Part shown: one piece after another, positions 33,340-42,045 of the stretch | How the letters are laid out: every line of letters begins with the position of its first letter | Position numbering within the stretch: position 1 is the first letter of the stretch | DNA from: Thermofilum uzonense | Lineage (GTDB): Archaea; Thermoproteota; Thermoprotei; Thermofilales; Thermofilaceae | DNA: 64,000 nt | Direction: 5' to 3' | Assembly (NCBI RefSeq): GCF_000993805.1 | Contig: NZ_CP009961.1 | Span: forward strand, 924,714 to 988,713 | Made by a program: the position numbers and the translations under genes | The notes under the pieces: model-generated | Told to the model about the DNA's origin: nothing | What the model saw: only the letters and a program-made list of their open reading frames with translations | Databases searched by the model: none

Positions 33340-33975
33340 ATGTCCTTAACTCCACAAGATGTCGAAAGAATAGTGTTTCGCTCTCTTAGAACGGCCTATG
33401 AAAAAGACAGAGGCTCGTGGACCGCACCTCCTAACGTGATCTACGTTACTGAGGTTACCGGTTGCCTTCTCCGCTCCTGGTACATGAGGACAATGGCAGG
33501 GCCAATATCTGACGAGAAAATAGTAATACTTCTTTTAGGGGATGATGTCCACTATCTAATTAACAGTCAGTTTCCTCTTGGAGAAGGCGAGAAAAGTTTC
33601 GAGAGAGAATACAAAGGAGTAACTATAAAGGGACGTGTTGATAGGATAGCCGGAGAACTGATTTTTGAGTTTAAGACGGCCAGCAATATCCCGCGCGAAC
33701 CGCGTGAACATCATGTTGATCAAATGCAGCTTTACTTCTGGCTAGCAGAGAAAAACAAGGGTTTCCTAGTATACGTGTCGAAGACGACAGGTCAAGTTAA
33801 AGCATTCCCGATTATACGTGATGAGCAGAGAATACAGACACTCTTAGAGAGAGCAGAGAGCCTCAGTAACTCACTTAGACTAGCTGTTCCTCCGGCCCCC
33901 GAGAAAGGATGGCTATGCGAGTATTGTGAATTTAGGGATCGCTGTATCGGCTTTAGAGAGGAAGGCCCACCTTAG
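33340..33975 (+). CDS. Stand-alone Cas4-like RecB-family nuclease
   Basis: 211 residues. The PD-(D/E)xK core is seen as KGRVDRIAG, then LIFEFKTAS, then HVDQMQLYFWLAEK (QxxxY motif). Four conserved cysteines that hold a [4Fe-4S] cluster in Cas4 are present: one in TEVTGCLLRSWY and three in LCEYCEFRDRC. No CRISPR array or other cas genes are visible in the window, so this is an orphan Cas4-type exonuclease. Its 3' end overlaps the NucS gene convergently by 23 bases; a role in DNA repair is plausible but not shown. Confidence 0.88.
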   Translation: MSLTPQDVERIVFRSLRTAYEKDRGSWTAPPNVIYVTEVTGCLLRSWYMRTMAGPISDEKIVILLLGDDVHYLINSQFPLGEGEKSFEREYKGVTIKGRVDRIAGELIFEFKTASNIPREPREHHVDQMQLYFWLAEKNKGFLVYVSKTTGQVKAFPIIRDEQRIQTLLERAESLSNSLRLAVPPAPEKGWLCEYCEFRDRCIGFREEGPP

Positions 33976-34714
33976 TATTACGCAGTATCTTGGAGACTTT
34001 TTGTAGACTAATTTGCTTATATTCGATGCTCTCCTTCTCAAGCGCGATCAACGCGGATTTAGTGAATCCGGGGGCAACGAGAATCCCTCTCACATGATGA
34101 CCAGTACTCATACTGAGCCTGTCAATATACCTTTTAAGCTGATATACTGCGTCGACTCCCGCCGTATCTTTTTTGACCTCGATAAGGACGTAGTTTCCAT
34201 TATTATCAATCATTAAAAGGTCTGCAAACCCGGCTGTCCCCAGTTTAACCTCTTCCTCGATTGGCTTAAGCTCTTCACCTAAAACCTCCAAGGGATACGC
34301 CATAATTGCACGTTTGATATCGTCTTCATCACCCCACATGTCAAACTTTGCCGTATCCTCTAGTTTGAAGGTGTAAAGGCCGAGAACCCTATAAGCATAT
34401 ATTTTTAACTCTTCACTGGGTTTCGGGCGAACCGCTGAGATTACAAGTCTGTTAGACTCTGCTCTAACAGATAGTATGCTTCCTTCGGGTTGGTAGTTCA
34501 CGGGCGTAGACCCATAAGGTCTGTGGACTATCGTTGTTCCATCGCCTTTAATCAGTACTATGCGTTCTCCTCTACCTAGTTTTGAGGATGCACGACCAGA
34601 GTATTCTACCTCGCAATCAGCAACCAAGATTATAGTCTCTCTCTGGTTAAAGCTCTCTCTAAGCTTCACTGCAGCCTCTTGTATGCTGAGGCCCTGGGTC
34701 TGATTTTTACTCAT
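33953..34714 (-). CDS. nucS: Endonuclease NucS/EndoMS
   Basis: 253 residues. The N-terminal beta-sandwich binding domain includes TIVHRPYGSTPVNYQPEGS; the C-terminal RecB-like nuclease has GFADLLMID and VLIEVKKDTAGVDAVYQL (Asp and ExK catalytic set). Archaeal NucS/EndoMS cuts mismatched or branched DNA. It ends convergently with the Cas4-like gene. Full length for the family. Confidence 0.9.
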   Translation of the reverse strand: MSKNQTQGLSIQEAAVKLRESFNQRETIILVADCEVEYSGRASSKLGRGERIVLIKGDGTTIVHRPYGSTPVNYQPEGSILSVRAESNRLVISAVRPKPSEELKIYAYRVLGLYTFKLEDTAKFDMWGDEDDIKRAIMAYPLEVLGEELKPIEEEVKLGTAGFADLLMIDNNGNYVLIEVKKDTAGVDAVYQLKRYIDRLSMSTGHHVRGILVAPGFTKSALIALEKESIEYKQISLQKVSKILRNTKVGLPL

Positions 34715-34807
34715 TCCGAAAAATAGTAAGAATGGTTTCTATTTATTTATAATGGGAAAACTGAAGCAATCGATATCAGGACAGTGATGCAGAACAGAAA
34801 ATACAGT

Positions 34808-35767
34808 TTAAAGTGCCTGAAGTTTTCCGAGCTCCTCGAGGCGTCTGAGCCTCTCTACAATGTTGGGGTGTGTTGAGAAAAGCTCCATTAGCTTGTCAGC
34901 CGTGGTAACCTTGCTCTGGGCTATCCTCTTGGCAGCCTCGTATCCTTCTAGTGCTTCCATGTCTTGGACGGCACTGTCAGGGTCGGCTATGAATAGCTCC
35001 TTGAATCCTGCAACGTGTAGCTGTGCTCCTTGGAGTTTAAGCCTGCCAGTGTAACCAACTATTTTTGCTAAAGCGGACATGAGCCGTGCTGCACCTATGC
35101 TGGGGTTGGGGGCGGTTTTGACGCTGTGGTAATCTGCATAGTATTCACGTATTCTGCTTAGGTGTAGATTTGCTAGACTCAGAATAAAGTACAAGAAGAT
35201 GCTTAGAGCGCCTAGGGCAATAGCCCCGCCTCTGTCGCGGTCTCTACCACCACCTGAATAGAGGAACATCCTCCCAATGATATAGAAGAAGGCTGGCAAC
35301 ACCGAGACGAAGGTCATGAGTTGGACGTCCCGGTGAACTATGTGTCCAACCTCGTGTCCGAGGACTCCGGCTATCTCGTCTCGGTTAAGAGTGTTTAGAA
35401 GTCCTCGCGTTACTGCAATCTTGTGTCCGGTTAGCGGCGAGCCGTAGGCGAAAGCGTTAGGATAGGGAACTTCAGCGATCATTAATTTTGGTTTTTCACG
35501 TAAGCCACTTCGGGAGACTACTTCTTCAAGAGCCATATGTACGTGAGGGGCTTCACTATAGGGTAGCTCCCTAACATGGTAAAATAGTTCTACCAGGTAG
35601 GGAGAAATAAGCCATTGCCCTACGTTGAAGATTAAAGCAAGTATGAGGGCGGCGATAGGAGATGCCAGTCCCATTAAATCCAGAATGAATACAAATGCTA
35701 GTGTAGTTAAGCCGAAGATGAAGCCTAGCGTCAATATCATTGATAATTTGAGGTCTTCAAGAGCCAT
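34808..35767 (-). CDS. htpX: HtpX-like M48 membrane protease
   Basis: 319 residues. Two N-terminal transmembrane helices, then MIAEVPYPNAFAYGSPLTGH, the zinc-binding GVLGHEVGHIVHRD (HExxH), two more helices (~165-215), and REYYADYHSV supplying the third ligand glutamate (EYYAD). A membrane-bound metalloprotease for quality control of membrane proteins. Own promoter region upstream (35,768-35,867). Confidence 0.92.
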   Translation of the reverse strand: MALEDLKLSMILTLGFIFGLTTLAFVFILDLMGLASPIAALILALIFNVGQWLISPYLVELFYHVRELPYSEAPHVHMALEEVVSRSGLREKPKLMIAEVPYPNAFAYGSPLTGHKIAVTRGLLNTLNRDEIAGVLGHEVGHIVHRDVQLMTFVSVLPAFFYIIGRMFLYSGGGRDRDRGGAIALGALSIFLYFILSLANLHLSRIREYYADYHSVKTAPNPSIGAARLMSALAKIVGYTGRLKLQGAQLHVAGFKELFIADPDSAVQDMEALEGYEAAKRIAQSKVTTADKLMELFSTHPNIVERLRRLEELGKLQAL

Positions 35768-35867
35768 AAGCCTCTCCGTAGACTATAGTAATAGAGAAAC
35801 ACTTAAAAATTTAGTCCAACTGCTAACTCTTATAATTTCTTTAGGTATGAGCTAGGAGTGAGGAAAG

Positions 35868-36941
35868 TCAGTAATAGAGCATTTTATAACCGTGCTCCTC
35901 CATCGTGAAATCCACCACATGTTTCTTCCAGGATTCGTCTAATTGCTGAACCTTTTTTAGCCATTCTTCTCGCATTTTCAAGTTCTTTTCCCAAGCCCCC
36001 TCGTCTCTTACGAGAAGAACGACCCGACTTTTTTCATCCGTCAGTTTAACGTTGTATCCTGTGCGCTGGGAAACTTGCTCCGCGAATTTCAGCATCTCCT
36101 CCATGGTGGGCATCGCAGTTATAGGTAGCCTTTTCTGGCTCTCCCCAACCCAGGTATAACCTTTCAGCTCCACGAACATGGGGTTCCCGTGCCTTATCAC
36201 TCGTGAGTATCCATCGGGGTCAACCATGTTGAGCCCCTTGACTAGGGTTAAGCGTATTACTGTGCGGCTCTCATTGAATTTTTCTAGTAATTCGAGGCTA
36301 CGCATAACCATGTCCCATGCTCTAGGTATCTTGGGCTCTGCGGCAGCATTGAAAACTTCCTCGTTTGGTCCGTACACGCTTACGTAGAGATTGGATGGCT
36401 GGGCATCTTTTTTGATTAGCTGCTCAAGTCTCACTGGTATCGAGCCGTTAGTTACCAGGAAAGCGGTGAGGTTTCTCTCTTTAAGCTTCCTTATCATTTC
36501 CGGCAGTAAGGGGTAAAGAGTTGGCTCTCCATCTAGGCTCATCGTGAAGTGACGGGGAAACATTGCTTCGAGAAATCTCTCCTTATCCACTTTGGGATTT
36601 CCTTTGAAGCCTATGAGGAGTAGCCTTTGAGCTATTATGGAGCCATTGATTATTTCGTCAGGGGAATCCCACCGCCAATTGAGGGGGAGCTTGAACCTCC
36701 CCGGCTGGTGCATACGCCAGCAGAACTTGCAAGTGAAATCGCAGAAGTTCAGCACGGGGGTCATCTGAACACATCGGTGGCTCTGTATACCATACCAGTT
36801 TTTATAGCATAACCTTTCGCCTCTTAACGCTGATCGTGTCCATCGGCAAATGGAAACTGCGCTATGGTTGCCGACGAGCCTGTAGCCTGCTCGTAGATAT
36901 TTCTCAACATTTATTCGCTCCTGAAAAGATAGAGCCATCAT
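35868..36941 (-). CDS. taw1: tRNA 4-demethylwyosine synthase (TYW1/Taw1)
   Basis: 357-residue radical SAM enzyme. Signature CDFTCKFCW (CxxxCxxC), preceded by the family-specific GIQSHRCVQMTPVLNFC with extra cysteines for a second Fe-S cluster, and SLDGEPTLYP. It converts m1G37 of tRNA-Phe to 4-demethylwyosine using pyruvate. ATG at 36,941; divergent from the MFS-DUF47 gene with an inverted repeat between. Confidence 0.93.
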   Translation of the reverse strand: MMALSFQERINVEKYLRAGYRLVGNHSAVSICRWTRSALRGERLCYKNWYGIQSHRCVQMTPVLNFCDFTCKFCWRMHQPGRFKLPLNWRWDSPDEIINGSIIAQRLLLIGFKGNPKVDKERFLEAMFPRHFTMSLDGEPTLYPLLPEMIRKLKERNLTAFLVTNGSIPVRLEQLIKKDAQPSNLYVSVYGPNEEVFNAAAEPKIPRAWDMVMRSLELLEKFNESRTVIRLTLVKGLNMVDPDGYSRVIRHGNPMFVELKGYTWVGESQKRLPITAMPTMEEMLKFAEQVSQRTGYNVKLTDEKSRVVLLVRDEGAWEKNLKMREEWLKKVQQLDESWKKHVVDFTMEEHGYKMLYY

Positions 36942-36979
36942 TTCGTATATGCCGTGGTTATTAAAATTCGTTTCTATAT

Positions 36980-37007
36980 ATGTAACAATAAGGTTTTGCA
37001 GTTACAT
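36980..37007 (+). promoter_or_regulatory. Inverted repeat, candidate operator
   Basis: ATGTAAC (36,980-36,986) and GTTACAT (37,001-37,007), a perfect 7-base inverted repeat with a 14-base spacer. It lies in the divergent promoter region between taw1 and the MFS-DUF47 gene: a TATA-like ATATATAG for taw1 overlaps its left edge and TATATAAATA for the MFS gene begins a few bases to the right. Position and symmetry suggest a dimeric repressor site; no binding protein is known. Confidence 0.4.
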
Positions 37008-37064
37008 AATAACCTATATAAATATAATTTTATATAAGGGAGGGAGGGAGATTTTTAGGGATGA

Positions 37065-38909
37065 ATGTTGAAAAAAGAGAACAAGGCTTTACTACTCATT
37101 CTAGCAACAGAGGTGTTAGTTGGTAGTGCCACAGGTGTTCAGAGAGCAATAGCATCAGTAGCGACTAGTGGTAGTCTTCAAGGCTTACCCGTCCTACTTC
37201 CGTTAGTTTCATTCGGTGTTTTCAAGGCCACATTCGATTTAACAGCAGGATATATCTCACACAAGAAGGGCAGAAGGACTTCACTTGTTATAGGTACAAC
37301 GGCGTATCTTATCGGAGCCACTTTAATCTTCCTCGCTAAACCCCCACTAAATTTCGTGATAGGTAATATTTTCGTTGGTATAGGTGAGGGTATAGTTTTC
37401 GCGACGTCCGCCATAGCTATAGGGGACATTCTTGGAGTTGAAAGATCATCGCTTACCTTCGGCTACATAGAGAGCGCGTGTTACATTGGTTATGCGTTTG
37501 GAGCATATATAGGAGGATGGGCTTGGAGCACCTTAGGAGGTACTACAGCCCTTATGATCATAGTGGTCTCATCCGCCCTAGCACTAGGCACTGCAATCAG
37601 TAGCCGTGAAACGAGCACTTATCTCGAGTCTGACAAGAAAAAATTCAGTGCAAAACCTAGACCCCAAGCTGCCCTAAAACTTATAATATCGAATCCCAGT
37701 CTAGTCTCTCCTCTCATAGCTGCACACGTTGCAAAGATGGCTGATAGTATCGTATGGGGCGTAATGCCGCTCTTCATGCTTAGCAGGGGGCTCGACGTCT
37801 ACTATGCTGGCTATGCACAATCCGTACTTTTGATAGTATGGTCTGCCACAATGCCCTTCTGGTCCTCGTATTCCGACAGGGTTGGAAGACGGCTTATATC
37901 CATGCTGGGGCTAATGTTTACAGCCTTCATGCTCATAGCCCTTCCCAGCACACGTTCTTTTCCAGAGATTCTACTAATAGCTCTGGGTCTCGGAATAGGT
38001 TACGCGATGTTTTACCCTGTTCTCCCTGCCCCCATCTCTGACATGAGCCCTCCCTCGATCCGGGACATATCTGTAGGATTCTACCGTTTTGCGAGGGATT
38101 CAGGCTACGCGACTGGGGCTATTCTGGCTAGTTTCCTTTTGCAAGGAGCCGGGGGAGGATACCCCTCTGTCTTCACCAACGTCGGCGTTCTGGTCGCTAT
38201 AACAGCAGCGTTTTACTCGGTATTCTTCAGGGAGACCAGGCCAACATGGCCTTTCTTCGACCTTGTGGTGGAGCATGTGGAAACTATCAAGAAAATTCTC
38301 TCTTTACAGAAGGACATTGTTAAAGACATTTTCGAGGGCAGGTTGGGTGAGGCTCAAAGGAAAACGGAGGAGATTAAAGAGCTTGAGAGAAAGGCTGACA
38401 GGATTAAAAGAGAGGTGGCTTGGAGGATATGGTCGGGTTTCCTTCCGATATCTAGCCGTATGGATTTTGAGAAACTCGTAGAGGAAATAGATAAGGTTGC
38501 CGGTGCGGTAATAGAGTGCAACGAGAGACTCCTCTGGGTCAAGTTTGTTCCAGAGCTCAGCGAATTAGAGCCCTCCATTGTTGAAATGGTTAGCGAAACA
38601 GAGGGGCTCGCAGGTAAACTTATCGAGAACATCCAGATGTTGAGACTGTCCCCTGCCTACGCTGTAAACATATCACGAGAGATAGACAGCGGTGAAAGAA
38701 AAGTGGATAGACTCAGGTCCGAGACCCTATCTAAGATAAGGCAACTAGTAGATCAGGGCAAGATCGACGTCATGTCAGCCTTAAACCTTATGGACGCCGT
38801 TAACTTGATTGAGCTCTCATCGGATGACTTCCAGGATGCAGCAGATATCATAAGAATAATAGCCTACAAGCACGCGGCGTTGCCGCCTGAGAAGGTAGAG
38901 ACACTCTAA
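37065..38909 (+). CDS. MFS transporter fused to DUF47/PhoU-like domain
   Basis: 614 residues. Residues 1-~395 are a 12-helix major facilitator: KATFDLTAGYISHKKGRRTS is the cytoplasmic loop 2-3 motif and SYSDRVGRRLISMLG its repeat in the second half. Residues ~405-614 are cytosolic and helical, with DIFEGRLGEAQRKTEEIKEL, ADRIKREVAWRIW and a repeat of that layout, the pattern of DUF47 (PhoU-like) proteins that bind metal ions and control phosphate transporters. ATG at 37,065. A fused transporter-regulator, perhaps for phosphate or another oxyanion; the substrate is inference. Confidence 0.82.
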   Translation: MLKKENKALLLILATEVLVGSATGVQRAIASVATSGSLQGLPVLLPLVSFGVFKATFDLTAGYISHKKGRRTSLVIGTTAYLIGATLIFLAKPPLNFVIGNIFVGIGEGIVFATSAIAIGDILGVERSSLTFGYIESACYIGYAFGAYIGGWAWSTLGGTTALMIIVVSSALALGTAISSRETSTYLESDKKKFSAKPRPQAALKLIISNPSLVSPLIAAHVAKMADSIVWGVMPLFMLSRGLDVYYAGYAQSVLLIVWSATMPFWSSYSDRVGRRLISMLGLMFTAFMLIALPSTRSFPEILLIALGLGIGYAMFYPVLPAPISDMSPPSIRDISVGFYRFARDSGYATGAILASFLLQGAGGGYPSVFTNVGVLVAITAAFYSVFFRETRPTWPFFDLVVEHVETIKKILSLQKDIVKDIFEGRLGEAQRKTEEIKELERKADRIKREVAWRIWSGFLPISSRMDFEKLVEEIDKVAGAVIECNERLLWVKFVPELSELEPSIVEMVSETEGLAGKLIENIQMLRLSPAYAVNISREIDSGERKVDRLRSETLSKIRQLVDQGKIDVMSALNLMDAVNLIELSSDDFQDAADIIRIIAYKHAALPPEKVETL

Positions 38910-39698
38910 CTATAGTTTTCTGCTCCCGTCTTCAATGGTACGATAGTATATTTCAGCGTATCCTTGTAGAATTTCTTTTGCCCTTTTAGCGGCTTCTAAG
39001 ACTTGCTCCTTTGGCGTTTTCGGCTTGCGGCGGTACTCTTCTGGGACTCCTGTATAGGGGATGAACTGCTGGACAACGTATACAAGGCGAGGAGCTTTGT
39101 CGAGGCGCATCTCGAGGATCTCTCGTGCTATCTTCTCTACATCCTCTACACCTAGAAGGTCGGGGACTAGGAGTGTTCTAAGCTCTAGGAAGTCCTCTAC
39201 ACGCTGTGAAACCTGTATCCCCATTCTAACCCTCTCCGTCATCTTTACCGCAACGCCTGGCTGTAGCCCTGCAACTCGTGCGTATTTTACAGGATCCTCG
39301 AGCGGGGCCTTGATATCTATAGCTATGTGGTCGAGGGCTACACGGCTAAGAATATACTCTATCGCCCCGGGTATACTCGCGTTCGTGTCCAGGCTAAGCT
39401 TCAACCCGGTCATAGCCTTAACCCTGGCGAAAAGCTCTCCAAGTGCTCTAAACTGTAGCGTGGGCTCACCACCAGTCACGTGGAAATAATCCACGAAGCT
39501 CGCAGCCCTGCTAGCAGCGGCGACTATCTCGTCCACGCTTACAGGCTTCTTCTCAACCCCCCTGGCGAGCACAGAGTTGGCACACCAGGGACACTTGAAG
39601 TTGCAGAAGCTAAGCCATAAGGTGAAGCTAACACTCTCTAATACATCAACTAGACTATTCTCTTTCCACCCTCCCACCCATAAAACTTGGGTGTTCAA
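38910..39698 (-). CDS. Radical SAM activating enzyme-like protein (PflA/NrdG type)
   Basis: About 262 residues. FCNFKCPWCAN is the CxxxCxxC motif; HVTGGEPTLQF and SLDTNASIPGAIEYIL follow as in glycyl-radical-enzyme activases (COG1180/COG0602). The frame extends to 39,836 inside feoB, but TTG at 39,698 overlaps the feoB stop (TTGA) with GGTGAT about six bases upstream, so I take that start. This makes it translationally coupled to feoAB. No glycyl-radical enzyme gene is in the window. Confidence 0.82.
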   Translation of the reverse strand: MNTQVLWVGGWKENSLVDVLESVSFTLWLSFCNFKCPWCANSVLARGVEKKPVSVDEIVAAASRAASFVDYFHVTGGEPTLQFRALGELFARVKAMTGLKLSLDTNASIPGAIEYILSRVALDHIAIDIKAPLEDPVKYARVAGLQPGVAVKMTERVRMGIQVSQRVEDFLELRTLLVPDLLGVEDVEKIAREILEMRLDKAPRLVYVVQQFIPYTGVPEEYRRKPKTPKEQVLEAAKRAKEILQGYAEIYYRTIEDGSRKL

Positions 39699-41803
39699 CC
39701 GGGCATCACCAGGCTTAATAGGTGGTATACAAGTGAGGCTGATAAAGTTCCTATAATGAGCGTATAAAGTACTAGGATTAACGTCAGCCTTCTGTCGCGA
39801 AACTGTGCATGAAAGGCTGAGACCGTGGCCAGGCATGGCGTGTAAACGGTTGTAAAGATCATGAGGCTAGCCAGCTGTGCAGGGGTTAGTGCAAGGGACT
39901 GAACAGCTTCGGATGGGTTTGTAGCCCCCGTCATTACTATCAGGGTTGAAGCCACTGCTTCTTTCGCGATAAAACCCGTTATGAGGGCGAGGGATATTTG
40001 CCACGATTGGATTCCTATAAGAGAAGTAAGGGGAGTTATTGCTTCTCCTATTGATCGAGCATAAGAATCGGTGGCCTCTTGTACGTAACCTTGAGGCCCG
40101 GTATGTAGGAGTGCCCAAACGAGGATTGTAAGCATGAAGATTATCGTTCCAGCCTTTTTCAGGAAGTGTAGAGTATTATCCCAAGCATACCACCATATGA
40201 CTTTCAAGCTAGGCCTATGATATGGGGGCAACTCAAGAATAAGCTCCGTTTTTGCACCTCCCCCCATCAACCTTGAAGCTATCTTTGCTGCGACTGCTAC
40301 AAGGAGAAGGGAGTAAGCGTAAACCGCCAGTACTGCTATTATCTTAGCAGTAGAAGTAGCCGGGATCGCAGATGCCAAAAAGAGTAGAATAACCAGGCGA
40401 GCCTGGCATGGAATGAGGGGGGCTATCATTGAGACGAGAATCTTCTCTTTGTCGGTGTCAAGTATTTTGGTGCCCATTATGGCAGGAACGTTACAGCCAA
40501 AGCCGAGCAACAAAGGCATAAGTGCTTTCCCGGAAGCGCCAAGGCGACTCATAAGGCCATGGTAGACCGTCGCAATCCTAGCCATAAGCCCCGTGTCTTC
40601 CAGGAATCCAAATGCCACGAACACTATGAAGATCAATGGGAGGAAAGTTAAAACAGCGCCTACACCGCCTATTATCCCCTCAGTAATCAATGAGATCAAG
40701 TAGGGAGGGGCTCCATGAATAGTCATAAAATCTGATACGAACTGGCTGACCGTGTCAAAGAGGGATGATAATATGCTTGACAGAGTATACGTCTCAAATA
40801 ATTGTGCAAGTTCCTTGTTACCGGTGAGCTCTAGTATCTGCTTTATTGGAAAGCCTGTGTTCACGGATAATACGAGAACTAGCACAGCAAATATTAGAAG
40901 TAAAGAAGCTAGTGGGCCAGCTAGAGGATGTAAAAATATCTTGTCCAGGTTCTCCGTGAACTCTCGCCCAGCTACACTAGTATAGGTCACGCTCTCAGCG
41001 ACTAGCTTTCCTATAAAATCATACCTAACGCTCGCCGTGATGAGAGCAGCGGGATCCCCTAGATCCTGCTCGATCTTTTTCCTAGTCTCCTCAACCAGGA
41101 CTTGGAGGGAAGAGCAGCCCGTCTTTTTAATTAGCTGTTCGAGCTCAACATCTCCTTCCAGCAAACGGAGCGCTGCCCATTGTAAAGGATATCGGCTCAT
41201 CTCCTTGCACGCGCTTAGAGCTTCAACGAGGTCCTTAGCATAGTAGCCGAGCCCACCATAGTCAAGGCTTAGTTTTCGGGAGGGGTACTTGCCTTCGGCT
41301 ACCTGTATAATATAGTCTGTTAACTCATGGATGCCTTCCCTTTTCAGTGCCGATATCGCTACTACTGGGACCCCTAGCCTGCGGCTAATCTTCTCAGTAT
41401 TAATATGTATGCCACGCCGAGAGGCAGCATCGATCTTGTTTATTGCGACTATAACTTTGTCATAAAGCTCTAGGGTTTGAACGGCGAGATAGAGAGAAGT
41501 TTCCAATGACACGGCATTGGCAACCACGACAATGACGTCAGGCTTTTCGCTTACGATATAATCTCGGGCTATCGCCTCCTCCTCAGTTAAAGCATTTAGA
41601 CTGTACGTTCCCGGAAGGTCGACGACCCTGATCCTGTACCCCATGTGTTCGAAGAAACCCTCATATTTGTCTACGGTCTTCCCAGGCCAGTTACCAACGA
41701 ACCTGTTAGCACCAACAAGAATGTTAAAAAGAGTGCTCTTGCCCACGTTGGGAGACCCAGCTAGTGCCACTACTATTTCCCGCGCTCTGCTGGGATTACT
41801 CAT
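39695..41803 (-). CDS. feoB: Ferrous iron transporter FeoB
   Basis: 702 residues. N-terminal GTPase: G1 GSPNVGKSTLFN, G3 DLPGTYSL, G4 AINKIDAA; then a helical GDI-like region (~170-270) and a membrane domain with about eight helices including GFGCNVPAIMGTK, the conserved cysteine motif, and SLITEGIIGGVGAVLTFLPL. It takes up Fe(II). Overlaps feoA by 4 bases and the downstream radical SAM gene by 4. Confidence 0.95.
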   Translation of the reverse strand: MSNPSRAREIVVALAGSPNVGKSTLFNILVGANRFVGNWPGKTVDKYEGFFEHMGYRIRVVDLPGTYSLNALTEEEAIARDYIVSEKPDVIVVVANAVSLETSLYLAVQTLELYDKVIVAINKIDAASRRGIHINTEKISRRLGVPVVAISALKREGIHELTDYIIQVAEGKYPSRKLSLDYGGLGYYAKDLVEALSACKEMSRYPLQWAALRLLEGDVELEQLIKKTGCSSLQVLVEETRKKIEQDLGDPAALITASVRYDFIGKLVAESVTYTSVAGREFTENLDKIFLHPLAGPLASLLLIFAVLVLVLSVNTGFPIKQILELTGNKELAQLFETYTLSSILSSLFDTVSQFVSDFMTIHGAPPYLISLITEGIIGGVGAVLTFLPLIFIVFVAFGFLEDTGLMARIATVYHGLMSRLGASGKALMPLLLGFGCNVPAIMGTKILDTDKEKILVSMIAPLIPCQARLVILLFLASAIPATSTAKIIAVLAVYAYSLLLVAVAAKIASRLMGGGAKTELILELPPYHRPSLKVIWWYAWDNTLHFLKKAGTIIFMLTILVWALLHTGPQGYVQEATDSYARSIGEAITPLTSLIGIQSWQISLALITGFIAKEAVASTLIVMTGATNPSEAVQSLALTPAQLASLMIFTTVYTPCLATVSAFHAQFRDRRLTLILVLYTLIIGTLSASLVYHLLSLVMPG

Positions 41804-42045
41804 TCTATCACCTCAACGATGATGCGTGCTGCAAGACCCCTTCCTATGGCTATCCTCGTCCCAGAGCGTTCTACAACTATCGGACCTGCATTGTTGAAAA
41901 CAACTCTTAGTTCCTCTCCCGGAACAACTCCAAGCTCAAAGAGTCTACGCATCGAACCTCTTCCTCCTTCAAAACTGATAACCTTCACACGAGAGCCAGG
42001 CTTAGCGAAGAGTAAGGGTATTCTGTTAGACAGCGCCATAATCAC
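41800..42045 (-). CDS. feoA: FeoA SH3-like regulator of FeoB
   Basis: 81 residues of the FeoA/DtxR-C-terminal SH3 fold: VISFEGGRGSMRRLFELGVV then PGEELRVVFNNAGPIVV and AIGRGLAARIIV. First gene of the feoA-feoB-radical SAM operon. AATTTAAAAAC on the minus strand about 25-35 bases upstream is a likely TATA element. Confidence 0.92.
   Translation of the reverse strand: MIMALSNRIPLLFAKPGSRVKVISFEGGRGSMRRLFELGVVPGEELRVVFNNAGPIVVERSGTRIAIGRGLAARIIVEVIE

Follow-up and report, generated by a model that had tools for sequence, protein, structure and literature searches.

A DUF47 domain fused to a major facilitator transporter in Thermofilum uzonense and related archaea: a candidate phosphate carrier with a built-in regulator

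In the heat-loving archaeon Thermofilum uzonense, a transporter of the major facilitator superfamily (MFS) and a DUF47 regulator of the PhoU type are joined in one polypeptide. The balance is about even that this fusion is a proton-coupled MFS anion transporter, most likely for inorganic phosphate, with a PitR-type bundle on the cytoplasmic end of TM12.

In bacteria, every clade of the PhoU family keeps to a transporter family of its own: PhoU is paired with Pst, the separate protein PitR goes with PitA (97.8%), and NptA has a PhoU domain fused to it (PMC13170248, mBio 2026). The same work shows PitR and the PhoU domain of NptA to control phosphate homeostasis. An MFS-fused DUF47 is absent from the pairings described in that paper. 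The label DUF47 is not used there; from size, pairing and name, PitR appears to correspond to DUF47 (PF01865). How proteins of the PhoU family act on transporters is disputed, the two views being gating of the carrier and signalling to a kinase. A thermostable MFS-DUF47 protein in one chain would allow gating to be tested on the purified molecule, its tail present or removed, and would widen the known transporter partners of DUF47 past PiT.

Results

The fusion gene and its neighbourhood

The window, which is the whole stretch of DNA analysed, comprises 64,000 nucleotides (C1:924714-988713 of a single-contig genome of 1,611,988 bases). The features of the locus are collected in Table 1. The gene order from 33953 to 42045 is NucS, M48 protease, TYW1, fusion gene, radical SAM, FeoB, FeoA, and it is largely kept across the genus. 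All six neighbours lie on the strand opposite to the fusion gene, which stops one base short of the radical SAM frame. FeoAB is found near the fusion gene by synteny in most genomes of the genus. As neighbours, TYW1, the radical SAM protein and FeoAB carry no hint of phosphate. The inverted repeat ATGTAAC-N14-GTTACAT occurs once in the genome. It was rejected as a conserved operator, as it is absent upstream of the orthologs and unique to the species.

Table 1. Coordinates of the fusion gene, its domains and adjoining features in the window.
Feature	Position	Strand	Evidence or remark
MFS-DUF47 fusion gene, 614 aa	37065-38909	+	Single uninterrupted ORF of exactly this extent (614 codons); Pfam MFS_1 and PhoU_div; 12 aligned family proteins
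12-TM major facilitator domain, residues 1-391	37065-38237	+	Pfam MFS_1, AlphaFold2 helices, Foldseek
Conserved linker RETRPTWPF, residues 389-397, TM12 to tail	38229-38255	+	Alignment of 12; helix gap in AlphaFold2 model
DUF47/PitR-type PhoU six-helix bundle, residues 398-602	38256-38870	+	PF01865, AlphaFold2, Foldseek, conservation
TYW1 (4-demethylwyosine synthase), divergent neighbour	35868-36941	-	TIGR03972, 368.6 bits, over cut-off; kept in genus by synteny
Radical SAM protein, tail-to-tail with fusion gene	38910-39836	-	Pfam, synteny
FeoB, then FeoA, beyond radical SAM gene	39695-41803, 41800-42045	-	Pfam, synteny
Inverted repeat upstream of fusion gene, possible operator	36980-37007	.	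Species-specific

Domain architecture and predicted structure

The full protein matches Pfam MFS_1 with 135.8 bits (2.1e-39, cut-off 33.4) and, at residues 398-600, PhoU_div/DUF47 (PF01865) with 72.8 bits (3.2e-20, cut-off 24.4). The tail alone reaches 75.3 bits with PF01865 (cut-off 24.4). The equivalog cut-off of TIGR00153 is missed by the protein (62.5 vs 104.3 bits). A full-length AlphaFold2 model, computed from the 12-protein alignment of the family, has a pLDDT of 90.5 and a pTM of 0.87. It consists of 12 membrane-length helices directly followed by a helical bundle, and the linker forms the gap between helices 366-387 and 398-423. As an even number of TM helices follows the cytoplasmic N-terminus in the standard MFS topology, the tail is expected to lie in the cytoplasm.

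The transporter part belongs to the major facilitator superfamily by its profile score, above cut-off, its 12 TM helices and its fold. By Foldseek, it is nearest to VMAT1/2, OxlT, LmrP and NorA, with TMt values mostly of 0.7-0.83 (E 7e-10 for the MFS domain with VMAT1). A copy of motif A, SDRVGRR, occupies residues 270-276.

The tail modelled alone has a pLDDT of 92.1. All of its 13 PDB matches at E<=0.001 in Foldseek are PhoU or PhoU-like. The best are the DUF47-type structures 3l39, 2olt and 2iiu (TMq 0.74-0.81), followed by the true PhoU proteins 4q25, 1t72 and 1t8b (TMq 0.66-0.68). The tail is therefore a DUF47 domain by its profile and by its PhoU six-helix bundle fold. The first-pass annotation, made from the sequence, had described a DUF47/PhoU-like regulator fused to the end of an MFS transporter. 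This description is borne out by the Pfam profiles, AlphaFold and Foldseek, and the PhoU topology on which it depended is the only type matched by the tail alone at that threshold.

Distribution of the fusion

The fusion, which the same annotation proposed to look for in other genomes, was found in 12 aligned proteins of the Thermofilaceae and in one distant relative. Frames of about 600 aa ending in DUF47 are present in seven of seven genomes of the genus Thermofilum and in four further genomes of the family (G020, G023, G024, G025), the fusion occurring in three Thermofilaceae genera besides Thermofilum. G025 has two diverged copies (L042, L043). The 12 proteins, of 594-616 aa, align end to end and are 34-74% identical to the window protein. 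A sequencing artefact can be discounted, as all of them share the architecture and several come from single-contig genomes.

When contigs from one genome for each GTDB species were scanned with the alignment as query, matches were confined to Thermofilum, Thermofilaceae and Thermoprotei MAGs; with the single window protein as query, the scan gave no match. Among 300 genomes sampled from the phylum, one further full-length relative was detected in a genome of a different family, G155 (606 aa, 28% identity, profile E 1.3e-123), with Pfam MFS_1 and PhoU_div. This genome is the sole carrier among 44 of its class, a pattern suggestive of horizontal transfer.

When 53 DUF47 domains were placed in a tree, whose deep branches are weak, those of the fusions grouped in a single clade (100/99), distinct from the PiT-linked, ABC-linked and orphan DUF47s. 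Other DUF47 frames in the class are about 220-280 aa long, except for a 571-aa frame in G002 and some weak partial matches. Longer DUF47 frames in G241 and G165 were rejected as fusions, being over-extensions of the start site beside PiT genes. Hidden DUF47 tails were sought in the 640-645 aa Pho84-like MFS frames of G050 and G053, and none was found.

Conserved residues

Across the 12 aligned proteins, the linker residues E390, T391, R392, P393, W395, P396 and F397 never vary. The same holds for ten charged residues of the MFS domain: R27, K54, E108, E136, H221, K224, D227, R341, R344 and D345. With the distant G155 copy added to the alignment, nine of them are still invariant, and R344 is replaced by a lysine. 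These embedded charges would suit a charged, proton-coupled substrate. An alignment of the MFS domain with GlpT by hhalign paired the wrong half with low probability and was of no use for mapping residues. In the tail, the ExxxD pairs E441/D445, E544/D548 and E583/D587, together with D594, are invariant, including in the G155 copy. ExxxD is known as the motif of the metal site in PhoU structures.

Phosphate transporters and the partners of DUF47

No PHO4/PiT match was found in the T. uzonense genome or in its genus. The genome encodes a complete PstS-C-A-B operon, and also PhoU-domain proteins. In G023, G024 and G025, a PiT with an adjoining DUF47 is present beside the fusion. The fusion is therefore not a simple substitute for PiT, and a clean swap of one for the other was rejected.

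The family of phosphate:H+ symporters (PHS, Pho84-like), TIGR00887, is missing from the NCBIfam matches of the window protein (20 families listed at E<=1), and the Pfam matches of the protein at E<=1 include no Na/Pi-cotransporter family. The missing TIGR00887 match speaks against phosphate, as do the best-matching folds, which are drug, amine or carboxylate carriers.

The 571-aa frame of G002, from another family of the class, encodes a DUF47 fused to an MFS that resembles phosphate:H+ symporters (L044:5761-7455), apparently by an independent event. Its best match is TIGR00887 (2e-68, below the equivalog cut-off). This fusion is known from one MAG, with the N-terminal 127 aa encoded in a different frame, so that the support it gives to phosphate as substrate is independent but weak. 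In two genomes that we take to be Vulcanisaeta-like, a DUF47, a HAD phosphatase and a Pho84-like/2A0115-like MFS form one co-directional cluster.

Five loci of Thermofilales (L046, L047, L048, L072, L073) hold an ABC operon with two TOBE-type ATPases, a DUF47, an SBP_bac_11 binding protein and a fused ModB-type permease, the latter scoring over the cut-off of TIGR02141 in the one operon checked. We know of no previous pairing of DUF47 with an importer of the molybdate/tungstate/sulfate type. The partners of DUF47 therefore vary, and its presence alone does not imply phosphate. Taken together, the G002 fusion, the DUF47/HAD/MFS clusters and the DUF47-ModB operons would support an anion, most likely phosphate, as the substrate of the Thermofilaceae fusion.

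Discussion

The MFS-DUF47 protein is probably a variant of a known theme, a transporter with a built-in regulator of the PhoU type, as in NptA or YjbB with their PhoU domains. As in these proteins, a PhoU-type bundle stands at the cytoplasmic C-terminus of the transporter; unlike them, the carrier is an MFS and not of the Na/Pi-cotransporter fold, and the bundle is of DUF47 type rather than PhoU type. The resemblance to PitR with PitA/PiT lies in the tail, which is DUF47 by profile and fold; the differences are that it is fused, that its partner is an MFS instead of PiT (PHO4), and that the T. uzonense genome lacks PiT. With the Pho84/PHT1-type phosphate:H+ symporters, the parallel is the G002 protein, also an MFS and a DUF47 in one chain, whereas the window MFS is of a different subfamily and the G002 protein apparently arose separately. 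A DHA-like MFS with an added cytoplasmic domain is also found in PDB 3wdo ("MFS Transporter"; profile match 7e-15), which we take to be YajR, an MFS exporter bearing a cytoplasmic domain at its C-terminus. The extra domain of YajR is a ferredoxin-like YAM domain and not a PhoU bundle.

The chances are slightly short of even that a PitR-type regulator was joined covalently to MFS anion carriers of Thermoproteota at least twice, in the Thermofilaceae family and in the Pho84-like carrier of G002. Such proteins would be phosphate transporters that need a single gene and contain their own sensor, and would add a fourth pairing to the three of the PhoU superfamily, PhoU-Pst, PitR-PitA and PhoU-NptA. 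In the literature searched, outside which most subscription journals lie, no paper describing MFS/PhoU or MFS/DUF47 fusions was found.

In the proposed mechanism, the tail would sense the internal status of phosphate or metal-phosphate through its conserved acidic ExxxD clusters, which are putative binding sites, and would act in cis to open or close the carrier on its cytoplasmic side. In the genus Thermofilum, the fusion may thus serve as a low-affinity, self-limiting phosphate system beside the high-affinity importer PstSCAB.

Export is a serious, if rather unlikely, alternative. The MFS would then be an H+-antiporter serving as a relief valve for surplus phosphate, or arsenate, which it would pump out of the cell, the DUF47 tail switching it on at high internal levels. 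The nearest solved folds and sequence relatives are indeed H+ antiporters or exporters (VMAT, NorA, YajR), import is already covered by PstSCAB, and there is a precedent in Escherichia coli YjbB (Na/Pi-PhoU), which exports phosphate. However, similarity of fold does not reveal the direction of an MFS, and the partner in the independent G002 fusion belongs to a symporter family of import type.

It is unlikely that the fusion is devoted to a substrate other than phosphate, such as another oxyanion, an organic anion or a metal-chelate, with the DUF47 tail sensing that ligand or metal. The varied partners of DUF47, among them the ModB operons of related genomes, point in this direction, as does the proximity of FeoAB. 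However, FeoAB is convergent with the fusion gene and not co-transcribed with it, and phosphate transporters accompany most known DUF47s (PMC13170248).

The earlier statement that DUF47 is normally a separate gene accompanying PiT holds for most cases (PMC13170248), but the class also has partners of the ModB-type ABC and Pho84-like MFS kinds. The proposal of a self-regulated transporter of phosphate or another oxyanion is plausible and partly supported: the comparative evidence fits it, but the MFS part stands outside the phosphate:H+ symporter family.

It is improbable that the tail serves chiefly in signalling or assembly, reporting transport to a second protein instead of gating the carrier, since no PhoPR-type system is known to us in these archaea and the very short, invariant linker favours direct contact of tail and carrier. 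What speaks for a signalling tail is that PitR and the NptA PhoU domain of Staphylococcus aureus control PhoPR activity, and that the latter domain is not known as a gate (PMC13170248).

Two further settings of DUF47 were observed. A protein of 91-92 aa precedes the DUF47 gene at L032:4669-5590 and L074:5655-6654; this pair is found in two distant genomes, including that of T. uzonense (C1:1515.7-1516.6 kb), and the small protein of L032 weakly matches a molybdopterin-dinucleotide-binding domain. At five loci of genomes presumed to be Pyrobaculum-like (L056:6245-7009, L058, L061, L062, L066), the DUF47 gene overlaps that of a 254-255 aa multi-TM protein starting ...YNNSLVLLGPTA.... The L056 protein has no Pfam or NCBIfam match; the multi-TM protein is perhaps a very divergent or reduced PiT.
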